DNA of 64,000 nt from Crocinitomicaceae bacterium (GTDB taxonomy: Bacteria > Bacteroidota > Bacteroidia > Flavobacteriales_D > Crocinitomicaceae). A program made the position numbers and the translations under genes. The notes below the pieces were generated by a model. It was not told the DNA's origin, ran no database searches, and was given only the letters and a program-made list of their open reading frames with translations. This document shows positions 17,363-28,655 of the stretch, one piece after another. Location of the stretch: contig JAIPAL010000001.1 of the NCBI GenBank assembly GCA_021740085.1, forward strand, positions 1 through 64,000, given 5' to 3'. Positions within the stretch are counted from its first letter, which is position 1; each line of letters opens with the position of its first letter.

Positions 17363-17382
17363 TTTGGTTGATTTACAGCAAG

Positions 17383-17610
17383 GGGGATTATTTCATGATC
17401 CCGGAAGGGGTCGCTTCATAATAATTAAAGCCATGCCGCGATGCGGCGAATAGCTTTTTTTGTTCCACTTCACATTAAAGCAAGCTTTAGGAAGGGTTTT
17501 TGGGCTAATCGTTGGTTTAGGAATGTAAAAGCGCTAGTAAGCTATACTAGGATAGATTCTAAAAATGTTAGTATACATTCTTAAAATTCATCTGCAAATT
17601 AATGTGTGAA
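17383..17610 (+). repeat. Dispersed structured intergenic repeat, copy 1 (short first hairpin)
   Basis: Shares 'ggggt(c/a)gcttcata.taattaaagcc.tgccgcgatgcgg....agctttttttg.tccacttcac.ttaaagcaagctttaggaagggtttttgggctaatcgttggtttaggaatg...gctatactaggatagattctaaaaatgttagta' with copy 2 at 19286. Confidence 0.9.
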
Positions 17611-17959: not shown

Positions 17960-18574
17960 ATGAAAAAGTTAATTTTTGGAACATTATTCCTTGCCTTAGT
18001 AGGAATTGGAGGTTTTTCATGTAAAAAAACCCACGAAATAAAAACTTTATCAAAAACTGAAAACACTTTTGAGTCACAAAAAAATGAACTACAAAACATC
18101 CTAAAGGATTTAAATTCTGAAGAAAAAGACGGGCCTGGTTGGTGGGAGAAATTTAAAGATTGGGTACATACTAAGTCAGGCACTTCTCAACGTTGGGTAA
18201 ATGGACAGGCAGCTTGTTTCGGTGATGGTGGTTGTGGTCCTTGTGCTGGAATGTGTCCCTTTGGCTTAGTTGAAGGTGGGGACGTTGGTAATATCTCTGA
18301 CTCAGAATTAAGCGCAGGATTCAGGCCTCTTTTATTTACTTTTGTAGAAAATTCTGAAAAAGAAATTCGACTTATCGTTGAAATTCCTAATAGTTACAAA
18401 AGTGACTTTGTAACGAATAATGGTGTCTATGTTGCAGAAGACACTTATTTGCCCGCGTTTTTAGTCGCACCAATTAAGGCTAATACGATTCTTATTAAGA
18501 AAGGGTTTTACCCAGCTATTATTGATTCGGTAAGTGGAAATGCTCAAACAATTGTTGACATAATTATAAATTAA
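17960..18574 (+). CDS. Hypothetical Cys-rich lipoprotein
   Basis: Lipoprotein signal MKKLIFGTLFLALVGIGGFSCKK; mature CFGDGGCGPCAGMCPFG cluster; no family recognised. Confidence 0.75.
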   Translation: MKKLIFGTLFLALVGIGGFSCKKTHEIKTLSKTENTFESQKNELQNILKDLNSEEKDGPGWWEKFKDWVHTKSGTSQRWVNGQAACFGDGGCGPCAGMCPFGLVEGGDVGNISDSELSAGFRPLLFTFVENSEKEIRLIVEIPNSYKSDFVTNNGVYVAEDTYLPAFLVAPIKANTILIKKGFYPAIIDSVSGNAQTIVDIIIN

Positions 18575-18646: not shown

Positions 18647-19255
18647 ATGAAGTTTACTTGTTTTCTGTTTTTAGCATTAATTTTCACGTCCTGTAATCTC
18701 ATCCGAATACTCCAAATGTCGGAACCTAATGATGAGTCCAAAATTGAGGTGAACAGATTTATAAAGAAATATAAATATGACTACAGTTTATTTGCAGATG
18801 ACAGCAAATCTTGGATGCAAAAAACCAAAATATATGGCGTCAACAATGATACAACCAAATACTCTTACGTACAACTAAGGATTTACAATCGTGATGGTAG
18901 TTTATATTCCGCCTATTCACAATGCATGGGGGATTTTAACAAGAGGAATTTTGTAGATAGTTTCCCACTCAAAAGGAATGATTATCCTTTTATCAATAAG
19001 CAATTGAACTTTAAAAATGAAATGGATTTGCTTGATCTAAGTACTGAAAAAAAAGAACAGATTCTTTCGCAATCAATAAATTACAAATTCATTTACGTCG
19101 TTTATTATGCTATTTGGACAAATTATCCATCGAAACATGTCCTTAAAGAAGTTTCTAAGATTAAATCGAAGCATCCAAATGATGTCATGGTTATATTGGT
19201 GAATTTAGCTAGAGATACTCATAAAGGAAATACCCTAAATGATACTCCAAATTAA
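18647..19255 (+). CDS. Hypothetical lipoprotein
   Basis: MKFTCFLFLALIFTSCNL lipobox; 202 aa; no family recognised. Confidence 0.65.
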   Translation: MKFTCFLFLALIFTSCNLIRILQMSEPNDESKIEVNRFIKKYKYDYSLFADDSKSWMQKTKIYGVNNDTTKYSYVQLRIYNRDGSLYSAYSQCMGDFNKRNFVDSFPLKRNDYPFINKQLNFKNEMDLLDLSTEKKEQILSQSINYKFIYVVYYAIWTNYPSKHVLKEVSKIKSKHPNDVMVILVNLARDTHKGNTLNDTPN

Positions 19256-19285: not shown

Positions 19286-19545
19286 AACCTTAAAGAAAGC
19301 TTTAGGGATTACGCATCTAAAAGGATGCGTGATCCCCAAAGGGGTAGCTTCATACTAATTAAAGCCCTGCCGCGATGCGGTAACTAGCTTTTTTTGCTCC
19401 ACTTCACCTTAAAGCAAGCTTTAGGAAGGGTTTTTGGGCTAATCGTTGGTTTAGGAATGAAAAAGTGCTATTAAGCTATACTAGGATAGATTCTAAAAAT
19501 GTTAGTACATGTACTTAAAATTCCATCGTGCAAAATAATGCACGA
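19286..19545 (+). repeat. Dispersed structured intergenic repeat, copy 2
   Basis: Begins ccttaaagaaagctttagggattacgcatctaaaaggatgcgtgatccccaaaggggtagcttcata..., highly similar to copies at 17383 and 28150; ends with atcgtgcaaaataatgcacgat hairpin. Confidence 0.9.
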
Positions 19546-19806: not shown

Positions 19807-19974
19807 ATGAAAATGTTAATTTATAGCGTTTTATTCTTTGCCTCAATTAACACTAGAACTCTATCTACAATTTTTAATGTTCAGAGGACGCTTACCAAAA
19901 GTAATAAAAAAAATGTTTTTTTGACTGTCGGAAATTCTGAAACAGCGACAATAAATTCTGAAAGTAAGACTTAA
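19807..19974 (+). pseudogene. Possible decayed copy of the 5' end of the 17960 lipoprotein gene (55-codon ORF)
   Basis: Upstream DNA (..gataattttggcttggattgaaata../..aaagtaggg..) and first ~45 nt (atgaaaatgttaattt....ttattctttgcc) resemble 17880-18000; similarity then fades. Confidence 0.35.
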
Positions 19975-19991: not shown

Positions 19992-20168
19992 ATGAAAAAA
20001 GTTTTTTTATTGGGCGGTTTTATCGCTTTAATATTTTCATTCTTCAGTTTTAACAACACAACCGAAGAAGAAGTTTGTTCTCCACGTGTAATTGAAAAAC
20101 AATTACGTGATGGATGTTATGGTAGTTCAAATGTCTGTTGTGTTAGCACGGCAGTTAAACACATGTAA
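19992..20168 (+). CDS. 58-aa secreted Cys-rich small peptide (not in ORF track)
   Basis: ATG 19992 to TAA 20168: MKKVFLLGGFIALIFSFFSFNNTTEEEVCSPRVIEKQLRDGCYGSSNVCCVSTAVKHM; N-terminal hydrophobic leader, four Cys in mature part, followed directly by a strong terminator. Confidence 0.7.
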   Translation: MKKVFLLGGFIALIFSFFSFNNTTEEEVCSPRVIEKQLRDGCYGSSNVCCVSTAVKHM

Positions 20169-20192
20169 CAATCCATAATTAAAAGCCACAGA

Positions 20193-20222
20193 AAAAAGCC
20201 CATCAAATTTTGATGGGCTTTT
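20193..20222 (+). terminator. Rho-independent terminator after the small peptide gene
   Basis: aaaagcccatcaaattttgatgggctttt: perfect long stem with flanking A/T runs. Confidence 0.85.
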
Positions 20223-20262
20223 CTATTCTTTAAAAAAATGCATGAATTAAAATCTTTCAACC

Positions 20263-21279
20263 TTGAAAAAAACAATAATCTATCTTTTAATTGGAATCGT
20301 TTCAGCATTTTCAATTATTGCTCTGTTAGTAAAATCAAGCAATAAAAAAAATAAAATCGAGCTAGTTCAGAAAAGAAACATCAATAAACAACTTGTTCTA
20401 ATTAAATCAATCAAATTTGAGAACATACTAGGCATGATGAAGAAAACTAAAAATGATATTACTTTCGCATGTTTCGACAATGTTGATGGCAACTCCATTT
20501 TTTATTTCGACACAATTAGAAAGAAAATTAGAAAGAAAATTGAGTTGAATATCCCAATTGAAAAAATTGTTGTAGACAATTATTTTTATTCAAAACATGG
20601 ATTGTTTATAGTAAATAGTATCAATGGGACTTTGCTGAAAATAAGCAGCGACGGTAATATTATAGAAAAATTTACATACCCAAAAAAATTCTTTCGGGTT
20701 GATAACCGGGATGATTTATTTTTAATATCAGGATGGGATAAAAATTTCAATCTTTTTCATGAAAAATTCAACTTTTCTTTGAAGAAAATCTCTAAAATCG
20801 TTTTCGAAGATGATTATCTAAAAAAATATAAATCTAACGGAATTGCCTTAGACGGTGCATATTTTAGTAATGATTATTTTACGGTTAACATGCCTTATTC
20901 AGTAAATCGAATATACATATTTAATGAAAATTTCAACTATACAAATAAGATGGATTTAATTTACAATCCTATCACTTTTAAAATTAGAAATGGTGAAGAC
21001 GGAAATATATATCCAGATCCAAATAATTTAAACCCTAATAAACATGCATATCTAGATTCGACCAATATTTTTTATTGCCTTTTAAACGAATCAACAAAAT
21101 GGGATAAATCAAATAAATGCTATATTGATATATATGATTTAAAAAACAAAAAATATAAAGAAAGTATTAAAGTTGTTGACTTTGCAAATTCTGAACCACG
21201 AGAAATTATTGTTGCCGGTAATCGAATTTATATTTTGTTCAAATCATCACTAAATATTTATTTAATCAAAAACAAATGA
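20263..21279 (+). CDS. Membrane-anchored/lipoprotein-like protein, possible 6-bladed beta-propeller (TTG start)
   Basis: N-terminal TM segment; repeated blade-like strands (e.g. ..VDNYFYSKHGLFIVNSINGTLLKISSDGNIIEKFTYPKKFF..); followed by MauE-like gene with 4-nt overlap. Confidence 0.6.
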   Translation: MKKTIIYLLIGIVSAFSIIALLVKSSNKKNKIELVQKRNINKQLVLIKSIKFENILGMMKKTKNDITFACFDNVDGNSIFYFDTIRKKIRKKIELNIPIEKIVVDNYFYSKHGLFIVNSINGTLLKISSDGNIIEKFTYPKKFFRVDNRDDLFLISGWDKNFNLFHEKFNFSLKKISKIVFEDDYLKKYKSNGIALDGAYFSNDYFTVNMPYSVNRIYIFNENFNYTNKMDLIYNPITFKIRNGEDGNIYPDPNNLNPNKHAYLDSTNIFYCLLNESTKWDKSNKCYIDIYDLKNKKYKESIKVVDFANSEPREIIVAGNRIYILFKSSLNIYLIKNK

Positions 21280-21698
21280 TAAGATTTTATTTTTCACAAT
21301 TCATTCGAATTATTCTTTTATTAATGTTTTGTTACACAACTTACCATAAATTAACTGATTTGAATAAATTCGAAGAGACATTATTAAAATCAACTTTAAT
21401 TGAAGAGTATCAAGTAAAATACTTACTCTTAATTATCCCTTCTATTGAATTAATCGCGATTTTCTCTCTACTAAGGATAAATTATCGAATTGGATTTTTT
21501 ATTTCGTTTTTCTTAATGTTGTTGTTCACTTTGTATTTAGTTGCATTAAATAATTACTCATTTTATAAAGGATGTTCTTGTGGTGGAATTTTTAATGAAT
21601 TGTCATATAGTCAACATATAATAGTTAACATATCCTTCATTTTACTTTCAGGAGTGGGTATATTTATTTTTTCTGTTGCAAGAAACAAATCAGAATAA
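21276..21698 (+). CDS. MauE/DoxX-like redox-associated membrane protein
   Basis: 140 aa, four predicted TM helices, FCYTTYHKLTDLNKFEETLLKS N-terminus and YKGCSCGGIFNELSYSQHIIVN cysteine motif typical of Bacteroidota MauE-like proteins. Confidence 0.7.
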   Translation: MIRFYFSQFIRIILLLMFCYTTYHKLTDLNKFEETLLKSTLIEEYQVKYLLLIIPSIELIAIFSLLRINYRIGFFISFFLMLLFTLYLVALNNYSFYKGCSCGGIFNELSYSQHIIVNISFILLSGVGIFIFSVARNKSE

Positions 21699-21815: not shown

Positions 21816-21847
21816 AAAAAAAGCAGAATATAAATTCTGCTTTTTTT
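21816..21847. terminator. Bidirectional terminator between MauE-like gene (+) and response regulator gene (-)
   Basis: aaaaaaagcagaatataaattctgcttttttt: perfect stem with A7/T7 arms. Confidence 0.9.
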
Positions 21848-21919: not shown

Positions 21920-22678
21920 TTAAAAATACTTCAAACTATCCAACAAACCACCTTGCTGTCTCAATTTCTTAGCAGCAATAATATCTTCATTTTCTAATTC
22001 AATCTCCTCATTAGACCTTGGGGTATAAAATCCGTTAATAATGCTCAAGCGTATGAGTTCATTGGCGGATTTCACCGCAAACTTTTTCATAAGAATCGTT
22101 CGGAGGAGATCAAGGTTTTTCTTTGAAGTAAAAACGGCGGCAGCTATTTCTTGGCCCTTTTTACCATCGCAAATCATTCTGATTATTTTTATGTCTCGTT
22201 CATCCAAATCCAAATGTTTCATTCGACTTTGTATTTTTCGCTCTGTAGCAATGGAATTCATAATTGCCTCGTTCATGAAATAGTTGGTGTATTTACCGTC
22301 ATGATGAATCTTTGTAATTGCTTCAATCATTTCACGCGTTGAACATTCTTTAAGAAGGTATGCATCTGCGCCTCTCGAAAGTAACTCGAATGCGATATCG
22401 AGGGCGTCATGCATGGTTAAAATAATGACTTTAACTTTGGGCTCTACCTTTTTGAGTTTTTCAAGGGTTTGTATGCCATTGAGTACGGGCATTTCTAGAT
22501 CGAGCAAAACGACATCAATTGGTTTGGTGGCAAGTTGATCCAGAAAGTCTTGTCCGTTTGCAGCGCCAAAAACATATTCAAAACCTGGAATTTCAGCTAA
22601 TGTTTTTCCGATTGCGTTTCTAACTAGTTCATGATCTTCAACAAGGGCTAGCTTAATTTTTTGAAAGGTGTTATCCAT
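21920..22678 (-). CDS. LuxR/NarL-family response regulator
   Basis: REC domain: LALVEDHELVRNAIGKTLAE, DVVLLDLEMPVLNGIQTLEKLK, KVIILTMHD; C-terminal HTH. Confidence 0.92.
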   Translation of the reverse strand: MDNTFQKIKLALVEDHELVRNAIGKTLAEIPGFEYVFGAANGQDFLDQLATKPIDVVLLDLEMPVLNGIQTLEKLKKVEPKVKVIILTMHDALDIAFELLSRGADAYLLKECSTREMIEAITKIHHDGKYTNYFMNEAIMNSIATERKIQSRMKHLDLDERDIKIIRMICDGKKGQEIAAAVFTSKKNLDLLRTILMKKFAVKSANELIRLSIINGFYTPRSNEEIELENEDIIAAKKLRQQGGLLDSLKYF

Positions 22679-23483
22679 GTTCTACCTGAATTTTAGTGTT
22701 CAACTCAACTGTGCCGTAACTCTCATTTCGATTAAAAGTCAAATTACCATTAATCATTTTCAGTCGATATTTAATGTTTTCTAATCCAAAACTATCTGAT
22801 TCCGCAGTAAGTACATTAAAATCGCGTTGAGTTAATGCAATTCCATTGTGCTTGATATTCATTTTCAGTTGCCACTTCTCGTACTTCAGACTCATTTCAA
22901 TAGCATTCGGATAGCTATGTTTCAACAAGTTGGTTATTAACTCACTGACAATGTAGAAATAATGCATACTGATTACATCCGGTATTACTATATCATTTGG
23001 AATTTCTGAAAGAAAAATAAACGAATCAATTAAAGATTCCGTTTTCTGCTTGGCCATTTTTTCCAATGCTTTTACCAAGCCAAACTTCAACAAATAATGC
23101 GGGACCAACCCTTTCGTAATCTGACGTATTTGATCAACGCTATCTTGAACATAACTCTTCGTTAATGACACCTCGCTCAAAACTAACTGCCCCAGTTCAG
23201 CTCTATCCTCGACATTCGAAAGATTCTTCAAGACTAAAGATAATCGCGCACCCACATCATCATGCAGCAGGCGCGCGATTTCACTTCGTTCCTTTTCCTG
23301 GGTGGTTATTGCCACTTCGAGTTTTTCGAGTTCTTTTTTATCCTCGGTTTCTTTAATTAATTTTTCGGAGATTTCTTTTATTTTGCGGTTTTTATTCGTT
23401 AGCAATATTATTCCACCTCCCATGAAAATAGAAAAGGACATCACTAATATTATAAACAGACCTAATTCTTGGGCTTCAAGCAT
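22671..23483 (-). CDS. Sensor histidine kinase (HisKA_3/HPK7-type)
   Basis: EKERSEIARLLHDDVGARLSLVLKNL phospho-acceptor region; ELITNLLKHSYPNAIEMSL N-box; FGLENIKYRLKMINGNLTF; one N-terminal TM. Confidence 0.9.
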   Translation of the reverse strand: MLEAQELGLFIILVMSFSIFMGGGIILLTNKNRKIKEISEKLIKETEDKKELEKLEVAITTQEKERSEIARLLHDDVGARLSLVLKNLSNVEDRAELGQLVLSEVSLTKSYVQDSVDQIRQITKGLVPHYLLKFGLVKALEKMAKQKTESLIDSFIFLSEIPNDIVIPDVISMHYFYIVSELITNLLKHSYPNAIEMSLKYEKWQLKMNIKHNGIALTQRDFNVLTAESDSFGLENIKYRLKMINGNLTFNRNESYGTVELNTKIQVEHG

Positions 23484-24073
23484 ATTGCATATGAGAAAAG
23501 AAGATTCAATATTAAAGAGAGCATTACCATGAAATCCAGTAAGTAGTTATTTAATTCCTTCGATTTCAAAATAATCTCCTCAAAGAATAGTAAAAATGTA
23601 AATGCAATTGTGTAAATGGATATCGAACAAAATATGATCTTTTGGAAATAATCTCCAGTAATATTGAACAGATATCGTATACCAAATCCCGAAATTACAA
23701 TATAAGTATACATTGTGGAAACATGGTTGTTTTGCAAGATACTTGACGTTACAGTCAAATCCAATATAAAAAAAACTAAAGCTAGAATTAGAAAAATTTC
23801 TTTTCGAAATTTATAGCGATGTAACGTATAAAATAGCTCTAAGATCAGAACAAACTGAATGAGAATTGAAAAGTGGAAAACTGGCAATGAATTACTAATT
23901 ACCTTTTCCGAAATTATATTTCCGAGATCTGTTAAGAATCTTGCCAATATGAAAAGAAAAAAAACTGACCTTAATCGAGTTTGCTTTGAAGTTATTCGTT
24001 GTTGGACTCCGATAAAAATCACCGGAATCAAACTTGATAATAAAACCGAATAATAGAAAAGGTAAAAATTCAT
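23462..24073 (-). CDS. Multi-TM membrane protein of unknown function
   Basis: 203 aa, about six hydrophobic helices; overlaps HK gene by 22 nt and shares TAATG with the upstream gene. Confidence 0.75.
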   Translation of the reverse strand: MNFYLFYYSVLLSSLIPVIFIGVQQRITSKQTRLRSVFFLFILARFLTDLGNIISEKVISNSLPVFHFSILIQFVLILELFYTLHRYKFRKEIFLILALVFFILDLTVTSSILQNNHVSTMYTYIVISGFGIRYLFNITGDYFQKIIFCSISIYTIAFTFLLFFEEIILKSKELNNYLLDFMVMLSLILNLLFSYAICLKPKN

Positions 24074-24387
24074 TAACTATTCAATGAGTTTGAATTAGAA
24101 CAATTTGGCGGACATTTTATTATTTTATCAGCTATCAAACCGTTAACCAAATCGTTTTCGTTACCATCTGCACCAACAATAACAATAGTGTTTTCATTAT
24201 TTTCATCTTTGGCAAAGTAAAAACGAATACCAACACATTCATTTTGGGCTAAAATCTTTTTGATTTTTTCTTTCCCCATAAAACCCCCTATAACCTCGCC
24301 AGGTTGAATTGTATTTCTGTAGCGTTTTGTCATTTCTGACCCTTCTCTTAGAGTGATAAAATCACCTTCATTTCCATTAAAAGACAT
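24073..24387 (-). CDS. Small conserved-looking protein of unknown function with C-terminal CPPNCS motif
   Basis: 104 aa: ...IKKILAQNECVGIRFYFAKDENNENTIVIVGADGNENDLVNGLIADKIIKCPPNCSNSNSLNS. Confidence 0.75.
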   Translation of the reverse strand: MSFNGNEGDFITLREGSEMTKRYRNTIQPGEVIGGFMGKEKIKKILAQNECVGIRFYFAKDENNENTIVIVGADGNENDLVNGLIADKIIKCPPNCSNSNSLNS

Positions 24388-28149: not shown

Positions 28150-28330
28150 TTTTTGTTACTTTTTTTTGAGCTAAAAAAAAGTAAAGAAATGCTTTGCCTT
28201 AAAGCGGGGATTACGCGTCGAAAAGGACGCGTGATCCCCAAAGGGGTAGCTTCATAATTATTAAAGCCATGCCGCGGTGCGGTAGCCATCTTTTTTTGCT
28301 CCACTTCACCTTAAAGCAAGCTTTAGGTTC
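28150..28330 (+). repeat. Dispersed structured intergenic repeat, copy 3 (with upstream ttactttttttt-gagct-aaaaaaaagtaa hairpin)
   Basis: ggggattacgcgtcgaaaaggacgcgtgatccccaaaggggtagcttcataattattaaagccatgccgcggtgcggtagccatctttttttgctccacttcaccttaaagcaagctttagg. Confidence 0.9.
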
Positions 28331-28377: not shown

Positions 28378-28569
28378 GCGGAGAGAGGGGGATTATCTCA
28401 ACTTCCGTTCGGAAGTATTCGATGGTCTTCGGCACGAACCCAGGGTTCTCATCCCATCTTCCTTCATTTCATTGCGGAGAGAGGGGGATTATCTCAACTT
28501 CCGTTCGGAAGTATTCGATGGTCTTCGGCACGAACCCAGGGTTCTCATCCCATCTTCCTTCATTTCATT
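28378..28569. repeat. Two perfect 96-bp tandem repeats, each including a 17-nt copy of the tRNA-Ser 3' end
   Basis: Units 28378-28473 and 28474-28569 identical; each begins gcggagagagggggatt, which recurs at 28570-28586 within the tRNA gene. Confidence 0.95.
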
Positions 28570-28570
28570 G

Positions 28571-28655
28571 CGGAGAGAGGGGGATTCGAACCCCCGTTAC
28601 GTTGCCGTAAACACGCTTTCCAAGCGTGCGCGTTCAGCCACTCTGCCACCTCTCC
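28571..28655 (-). tRNA. tRNA-Ser (anticodon GGA)
   Basis: Minus strand GGAGAGGTGGCAGAGTGGCTGAACGCGCACGCTTGGAAAGCGTGTTTACGGCAACGTAACGGGGGTTCGAATCCCCCTCTCTCCG: cloverleaf with long variable arm; anticodon loop TTGGAAA. Confidence 0.95.

Follow-up and report, generated by a model that had tools for sequence, protein, structure and literature searches.

The MauE protein of Paracoccus, which belongs to the maturation of methylamine dehydrogenase, has been speculated to help in disulfide formation of the beta-subunit. In the decRiPPter candidate RiPP families of Streptomyces, MauE is encoded beside precursors with at least eight cysteines, and it was proposed to act on these precursors (PMC7794033). 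Bacteroidetocins are four-Cys peptides that require a neighbouring thiol oxidoreductase and a membrane protein for full activity (PMC6671954). In bufferins and oxazolins, a DoxX-type protein accompanies a Cys peptide that keeps its Sec leader, and this DoxX protein is suspected of keeping thiols reduced or of aiding loading (PMC12452194, PMC13419390); siamycin-type lasso peptides come with DoxX plus a thioredoxin (PMC9266682). Bacteroides has been reported to lack the general disulfide machinery (PMC6671954), which raises the question of how this phylum folds its secreted Cys peptides.

Here we describe a cassette for a 58-aa Cys peptide, a predicted beta-propeller protein and a MauE protein in a 64,000-nucleotide stretch of DNA from a Crocinitomicaceae bacterium (GCA_021740085.1, contig JAIPAL010000001.1), hereafter referred to as the window. 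As in the Mau system, the protein belongs to PF07291, and a membrane protein is thought to serve the disulfides of a Cys-rich periplasmic partner. In contrast to that system, neither MauD thioredoxin nor methylamine dehydrogenase or other mau genes adjoin; the partners are the propeller and the peptide, and the next gene encodes a response regulator. The decRiPPter families likewise have a MauE gene adjoining a small Cys-rich precursor, but they are actinobacterial, their precursors have at least eight cysteines, and the passages of the source that describe them name MauE, MauD in one family, and no propeller (PMC7794033). Bacteroidetocins share with the window a Bacteroidota four-Cys peptide that has a dedicated thiol oxidoreductase at its side, together with a membrane protein. 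They differ in having a 15-aa GG leader, an ABC transporter with a double-glycine peptidase, a five-helix membrane protein and no propeller; GG is not conserved in the leaders of the window peptide's relatives, and an ABC transporter is absent from the cassette operon. In the bufferin, oxazolin and siamycin-type systems, too, a Cys peptide, which has a Sec leader in the first two, comes with a membrane protein of the DoxX type, but these systems need an MNIO and its partner protein, or lasso enzymes, none of which was found among the scanned neighbours in the window. Cassettes of an oxidoreductase and a Cys peptide are already known; the peptide-propeller-MauE set is a form for which we found no publication in the open-access literature.

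Organisation of the cassette

The features of the locus are collected in Table 1. The original prediction, made from the letters of the window, had proposed a 58-codon ORF with a hydrophobic leader and four cysteines, a membrane-anchored propeller-like protein and, overlapping it by four nucleotides, a four-helix protein with a CSCGG motif. All of these were retrieved, and so was the bidirectional terminator at the end of the unit, which closes both the cassette and the convergent response-regulator gene. The hairpin 3′ of the peptide gene also proved to be a perfect palindrome, beginning one base later than the predicted 20193; its stem and T tail were equalled in none of 200 shuffled sequences.

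Table 1. Cassette features and the convergent unit, in window coordinates
Feature	Position	Strand	Remarks
58-aa secreted Cys peptide gene	19992..20168	+	ORF with ATG start; same-position homologues in L116, L117, L118, L119, L185, L130, L173
Intrinsic-terminator-like hairpin between peptide and propeller genes	20194..20222	.	Perfect palindrome, 13-bp stem and T tail
Predicted beta-propeller protein, 338 aa, one N-terminal membrane helix (residues 2-26)	20263..21279	+	TTG start; AlphaFold2, Foldseek
MauE family (PF07291) four-helix membrane protein, 140 aa	21276..21698	+	PF07291 HMM; overlaps propeller gene by 4 nt (ATGA)
CxCGG codons, C100-S-C102-G-G, loop between helices 3 and 4 of MauE	21573..21587	+	Invariant in 25 aligned proteins
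Bidirectional terminator-like hairpin	21816..21847	.	Perfect 14-bp stem, T run on both strands
Convergent unit: response regulator, histidine kinase, 203-aa membrane protein, 104-aa protein (EGSEMTKRYR)	21920-24387	-	

The peptide, MKKVFLLGGFIALIFSFFSFNNTTEEEVCSPRVIEKQLRDGCYGSSNVCCVSTAVKHM, has a leader of about residues 1-20, followed by cysteines at positions 29, 42, 49 and 50, the last three forming the motif C-x-G-x(4)-CC. Judging by the hydrophobic leader and the even number of cysteines, the product is probably Sec-exported and disulfide-bonded. Pfam and NCBIfam scans gave no family match for it, the DUF6520 (PF20130) HMM gave none at E 10, and NVEALA (PF14055), considered as the peptide family, yielded two sub-threshold hits in 198 genomes. 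Just 5′ of the peptide gene, at 19807-19974 (+), lies a 55-codon ORF with a hydrophobic start and no family match, which could be a second small gene.

The start of the propeller gene was placed at the TTG codon because translation from the in-frame ATG at 20242 would hit a stop codon. While the Pfam and NCBIfam scans found no family for the protein, its AlphaFold2 model (pLDDT 84.4, pTM 0.81) consisted, beyond the N-terminal helix, of strands with the exception of two short helices. A Foldseek search with this model gave a best E of 2.8e-11 at a probability of 1.00, and beta-propellers, including the Bacteroides DUF4221 protein 3s9j, dominated among the matches listed, so that a beta-propeller fold is predicted. 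The HMM of DUF5128 (PF17170), a six-bladed propeller, did not match the window protein, whereas a homologue from a Thermochlorobacteriaceae MAG scored above the cut-off (E 1.4e-6); in all, this HMM matched two of 23 members. In hhalign profile comparisons, window-type and other separate-gene propellers aligned with an E of 8.8e-13; separate-gene and MauE-fused propellers aligned with an E of 1.7e-5 and a probability of 79% over about 70 C-terminal residues. At the level of profiles, homology is thus firm among the separate-gene types and weaker towards the fused type. The cysteines of the propeller are not conserved among homologues.

Membership of the third protein in PF07291 is clear (E 8.1e-22, 78.3 bits at a gathering cut-off of 27), and its model showed four long helices (pLDDT 93.4). 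Across 25 aligned MauE proteins, C100, C102, G103, G104, E58, Y87, N107, H114 and N118 were invariant. By the positive-inside rule, the CxCGG loop would face the periplasm, which would be the side of peptide export and the one faced by the propeller. Foldseek returned no significant match for the MauE model; NACHO/TMEM35A (TM 0.51, E 6.1) is a lead only.

Recurrence in relatives and accessory distribution

Relatives were sought in 69 named loci from bacterial genomes, scanned with a pattern from a three-sequence MauE alignment, and in whole genomes. The order peptide-propeller-MauE recurred in five Flavobacterium loci (L116, Flavobacterium UBA7680; L117, Flavobacterium HTF; L118, F. sharifuzzamanii; L119, F. 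croceum; L185, another Flavobacterium), in the Thermochlorobacteriaceae MAG (L130/L075) and in an Ignavibacteria MAG (L173/L041). A Capnocytophaga MAG (L120) had the propeller and MauE genes; a peptide gene was not found there, and the propeller ORF looks truncated. The peptides had in common C-x-G-x(4)-CC after a Sec-like leader, with slightly altered spacing in the two most distant ones, and the alignment of the window (GCYGSSNVCCVST), L116 (GCGGGDRVCCAST), L185 (TCQGGARTCCVAV) and L130 (ACGGGTTGCCIDS) displayed an invariant C-x-G...CC. Four cysteines were present throughout, except for six in L173, and the position of the first cysteine varied among the window, L119 and L185. At the expected cleavage site, AQ is present in L116 and L117 and SQ in L119, a type of site that fits the Bacteroidetes Q-rule (PMC5837995); the window leader has no clear site of this kind.

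Comparison of the L116 peptide gene with those of L117 and L118 gave a dN of 0.23 and a dS of about 1.16-1.31 (1.31 for L117), which argues that the ORF is coding. L117 and L118 differed by one synonymous and no non-synonymous change, and the comparison of the window with L185 was near saturation and little informative. The prediction would have failed had no small Cys ORF been conserved 5′ of orthologous propeller/MauE pairs; instead, one was found at seven loci, and its coding nature was borne out by recurrence and dN/dS. By this comparative evidence, the 58-residue ORF is a real gene of a small secreted peptide. Six relatives were checked for a hairpin after the peptide gene, and every one of them had it; a good T run accompanied the hairpin in L116, L117 and L118 but not in L119, L130 and L185. 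The proposed internal terminator holds as a recurring hairpin, and its T run does not recur in several of the relatives. Since peptide motif, gene order and post-peptide hairpin recur in independent genomes, the cassette is more than a chance arrangement.

The distribution is sparse. Among 200 genomes from the family, the propeller turned up in three, which all belong to the window's genus, and the stand-alone MauE of the cassette type was present in the same three among 86 genomes of the genus; three of 350 Flavobacterium genomes had the cassette. Other strong MauE hits in the genus lay in frames of mostly about 320-414 aa, and the three examined were MauE-thioredoxin fusions; the common MauE of the genus is one with a fused thioredoxin-like domain and the motifs CGCFGS and PSCEHC. 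A peptide profile search of 301 Flavobacterium-family genomes gave, for the most part, matches to the leader alone and is uninformative on orphan copies.

When the window was compared with G108, a genome of another species, the block at 20.0-24.5 kb was about 99.2-100% identical per 500-base step and about 99.6% overall, whereas its flanks were mostly about 84-92% identical. This difference points to recent transfer or recombination of the block. On this alignment, the cassette is accessory and sits in a recently transferred block. A repeat of about 120-200 nt occurs in three copies within 17-28.4 kb (17371-17604, 19305-19523 and 28207-28327) and is also found in G108. One copy marks the left edge of the shared block and may be a recombination site. 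Next to a variable region, at 28378-28655, a perfect tandem pair of 96 nt abuts tRNA-Ser(GGA) and looks like an integration hot spot. Two predicted lipoproteins are encoded outside the shared block, one of 204 aa (17960-18574, +) with the Cys cluster CFGDGGCGPCAGMC and without a confident family, and one of 202 aa (18647-19255, +), which matches Redoxin weakly (E 3e-4) and contains no CxxC. In viral contigs, plasmids and phages, the searches brought up no relatives of their respective queries, and PADLOC found no defence family.

The convergent kinase/regulator module, with its 203-aa and 104-aa genes, lies within the block shared with G108 and accompanies the cassette in the window, in G195 and in G108. 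It is not counted as part of the cassette because it is absent beside the Flavobacterium cassettes; as a conserved partner it was rejected, since a small protein together with kinase and regulator was found near MauE in just two additional loci, L083 and L096. The contig of G195 is also our locus L114 (CAMDAH010000027.1), of which 11 kb are 100% identical to the window; it belongs to the window's genus, and its title, Chryseobacterium gleum, looks wrong.

Proposed peptide maturation and competing explanations

An invariant-Cys membrane redox protein, a partner with which it is fused in some genomes and a secreted Cys peptide with a conserved motif are most simply read as a dedicated maturation unit. 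In this unit, MauE would act on the cysteines of the peptide, mainly by oxidising them, and the propeller would serve for docking; we assign this reading a probability of roughly 0.6. What we infer about topology, redox direction, the relation to the substrate, the expression ratio and the final function is the following. The 58-aa precursor would cross the inner membrane via its Sec-type leader, and the periplasm-facing CxCGG pair of MauE would act on its four cysteines, most likely oxidising them to two disulfides. The propeller, tethered in the inner membrane beside MauE, would hold or present the peptide, and natural MauE-propeller fusions suggest such a partnership. The hairpin after the peptide gene would yield many peptide transcripts per propeller-MauE transcript. 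The finished peptide would act outside the cytoplasm, most likely in cell-cell competition or signalling, and may be a toxin or a pheromone. The invariance of the MauE cysteine pair, set against the variable propeller cysteines, counts for maturation based on MauE. CxC pairs can also reduce or isomerise, so that oxidation of the peptide by MauE is the presumed rather than the sole direction. The cassette operon contains neither an export gene nor a killing gene.

Alternatively, the peptide could be a toxin or bacteriocin and the propeller and MauE its immunity or receptor complex instead of maturation machinery. The patchy distribution (three of 86 genomes of the genus, three of 350 of Flavobacterium), the recent transfer of a block about 99.6% identical and the tandem paralogous peptides in the related modules L129, L138 and L145 would all suit this explanation. 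We nevertheless consider it unlikely, since peptide and MauE diverge similarly (67 and 73% identity between L116 and L117), an invariant redox motif is odd for a pure immunity protein, and the analogous oxidoreductase and membrane protein of the bacteroidetocins conferred no protection (PMC6671954).

An equally doubtful explanation is that the peptide binds copper or zinc in the periplasm, with MauE keeping its thiols reduced or helping to load the metal. DoxX-type genes do accompany Cys-rich, Sec-exported metallophore precursors (PMC12452194, PMC13419390), and CGGCGGGDRVCC in the Flavobacterium peptides seems to resemble metal-thiolate motifs. However, the MNIO and its partner protein are absent among the scanned neighbours, the first cysteine is not fixed in position, and the peptides of the broader module have quite different Cys spacing. 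Far less probable still is a periplasmic redox sensor made of MauE and propeller, the peptide being only a diffusible regulator or electron donor: the internal hairpin and the kinase/regulator module travelling with the cassette in three genomes would fit a sensor, but that module is not found beside the Flavobacterium cassettes. Finally, a chance ORF, as its length of only 58 codons and the lack of a database family might suggest, is ruled out by the motif, position and coding selection kept in relatives.

MauE-propeller modules across Bacteroidota

Elsewhere in Bacteroidota, MauE and propeller genes occur in reverse order or fused (about 505 aa), and usually a secreted Cys protein, often of DUF6520, comes after them. 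Many Flavobacterium genomes encode such a fusion of about 505 aa followed by a secreted Cys protein of 84-95 aa with four cysteines, and the first two neighbours of this kind that were scanned, from one fused and one separate-gene locus, both matched DUF6520. The DUF6520 (PF20130) modules resemble the cassette in having small secreted Cys proteins with the same MauE and propeller families; they differ in that DUF6520 proteins are longer, with other Cys spacing and the opposite gene order, and PF20130 gave no hit to the window peptide. Under fixed criteria applied to stand-alone MauE loci, small Sec-leader ORFs with at least two cysteines lay beside MauE on the cassette strand at 55 of 67 loci and on the opposite strand at three, against 2.9 expected from shuffled flanks; part of this excess could reflect the coding strand of the operon, because the shuffle control keeps composition and not gene density.

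The window itself has what defines the module here, a MauE gene adjoined by a homologous anchored propeller and a small Cys ORF with a Sec leader. Its cassette is one version of a theme that is widespread in Bacteroidota and tied to DUF6520 proteins. In Chitinophaga skermanii (L142), MauE and propeller genes accompany two peptides with CFGTGKFCCA and CIGQGVFCCA, which appear to link the C-x-G-x(4)-CC style to that of the wider module. Searches of the open-access literature, with subscription journals mostly outside their coverage, brought up no publication about DUF6520, NVEALA or the 'redox-associated membrane protein'.

Tentatively, and at somewhat less than even odds, these modules may constitute a Bacteroidota-wide, undescribed system dedicated to the oxidative folding of short secreted Cys peptides, a large class that has stayed hidden. 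The class would comprise the C-x-G-x(4)-CC family, the CGxTxxG peptides and DUF6520, and the propeller would be a substrate-specific docking platform replacing a thioredoxin partner. If true, the modules would define natural peptide cassettes of a new class. The recurring MauE-propeller pair, sometimes fused and usually near small secreted Cys proteins, offers a concrete, testable candidate for peptide folding, and it points to a large set of small peptide genes, many of them probably unannotated, whose products may act as antimicrobials or signals. Arrays of three to four paralogous secreted Cys peptides were seen beside MauE in L129 (2944-7097), L138 (6526-7088) and L145 (5491-7016), and these resemble diversifying families.
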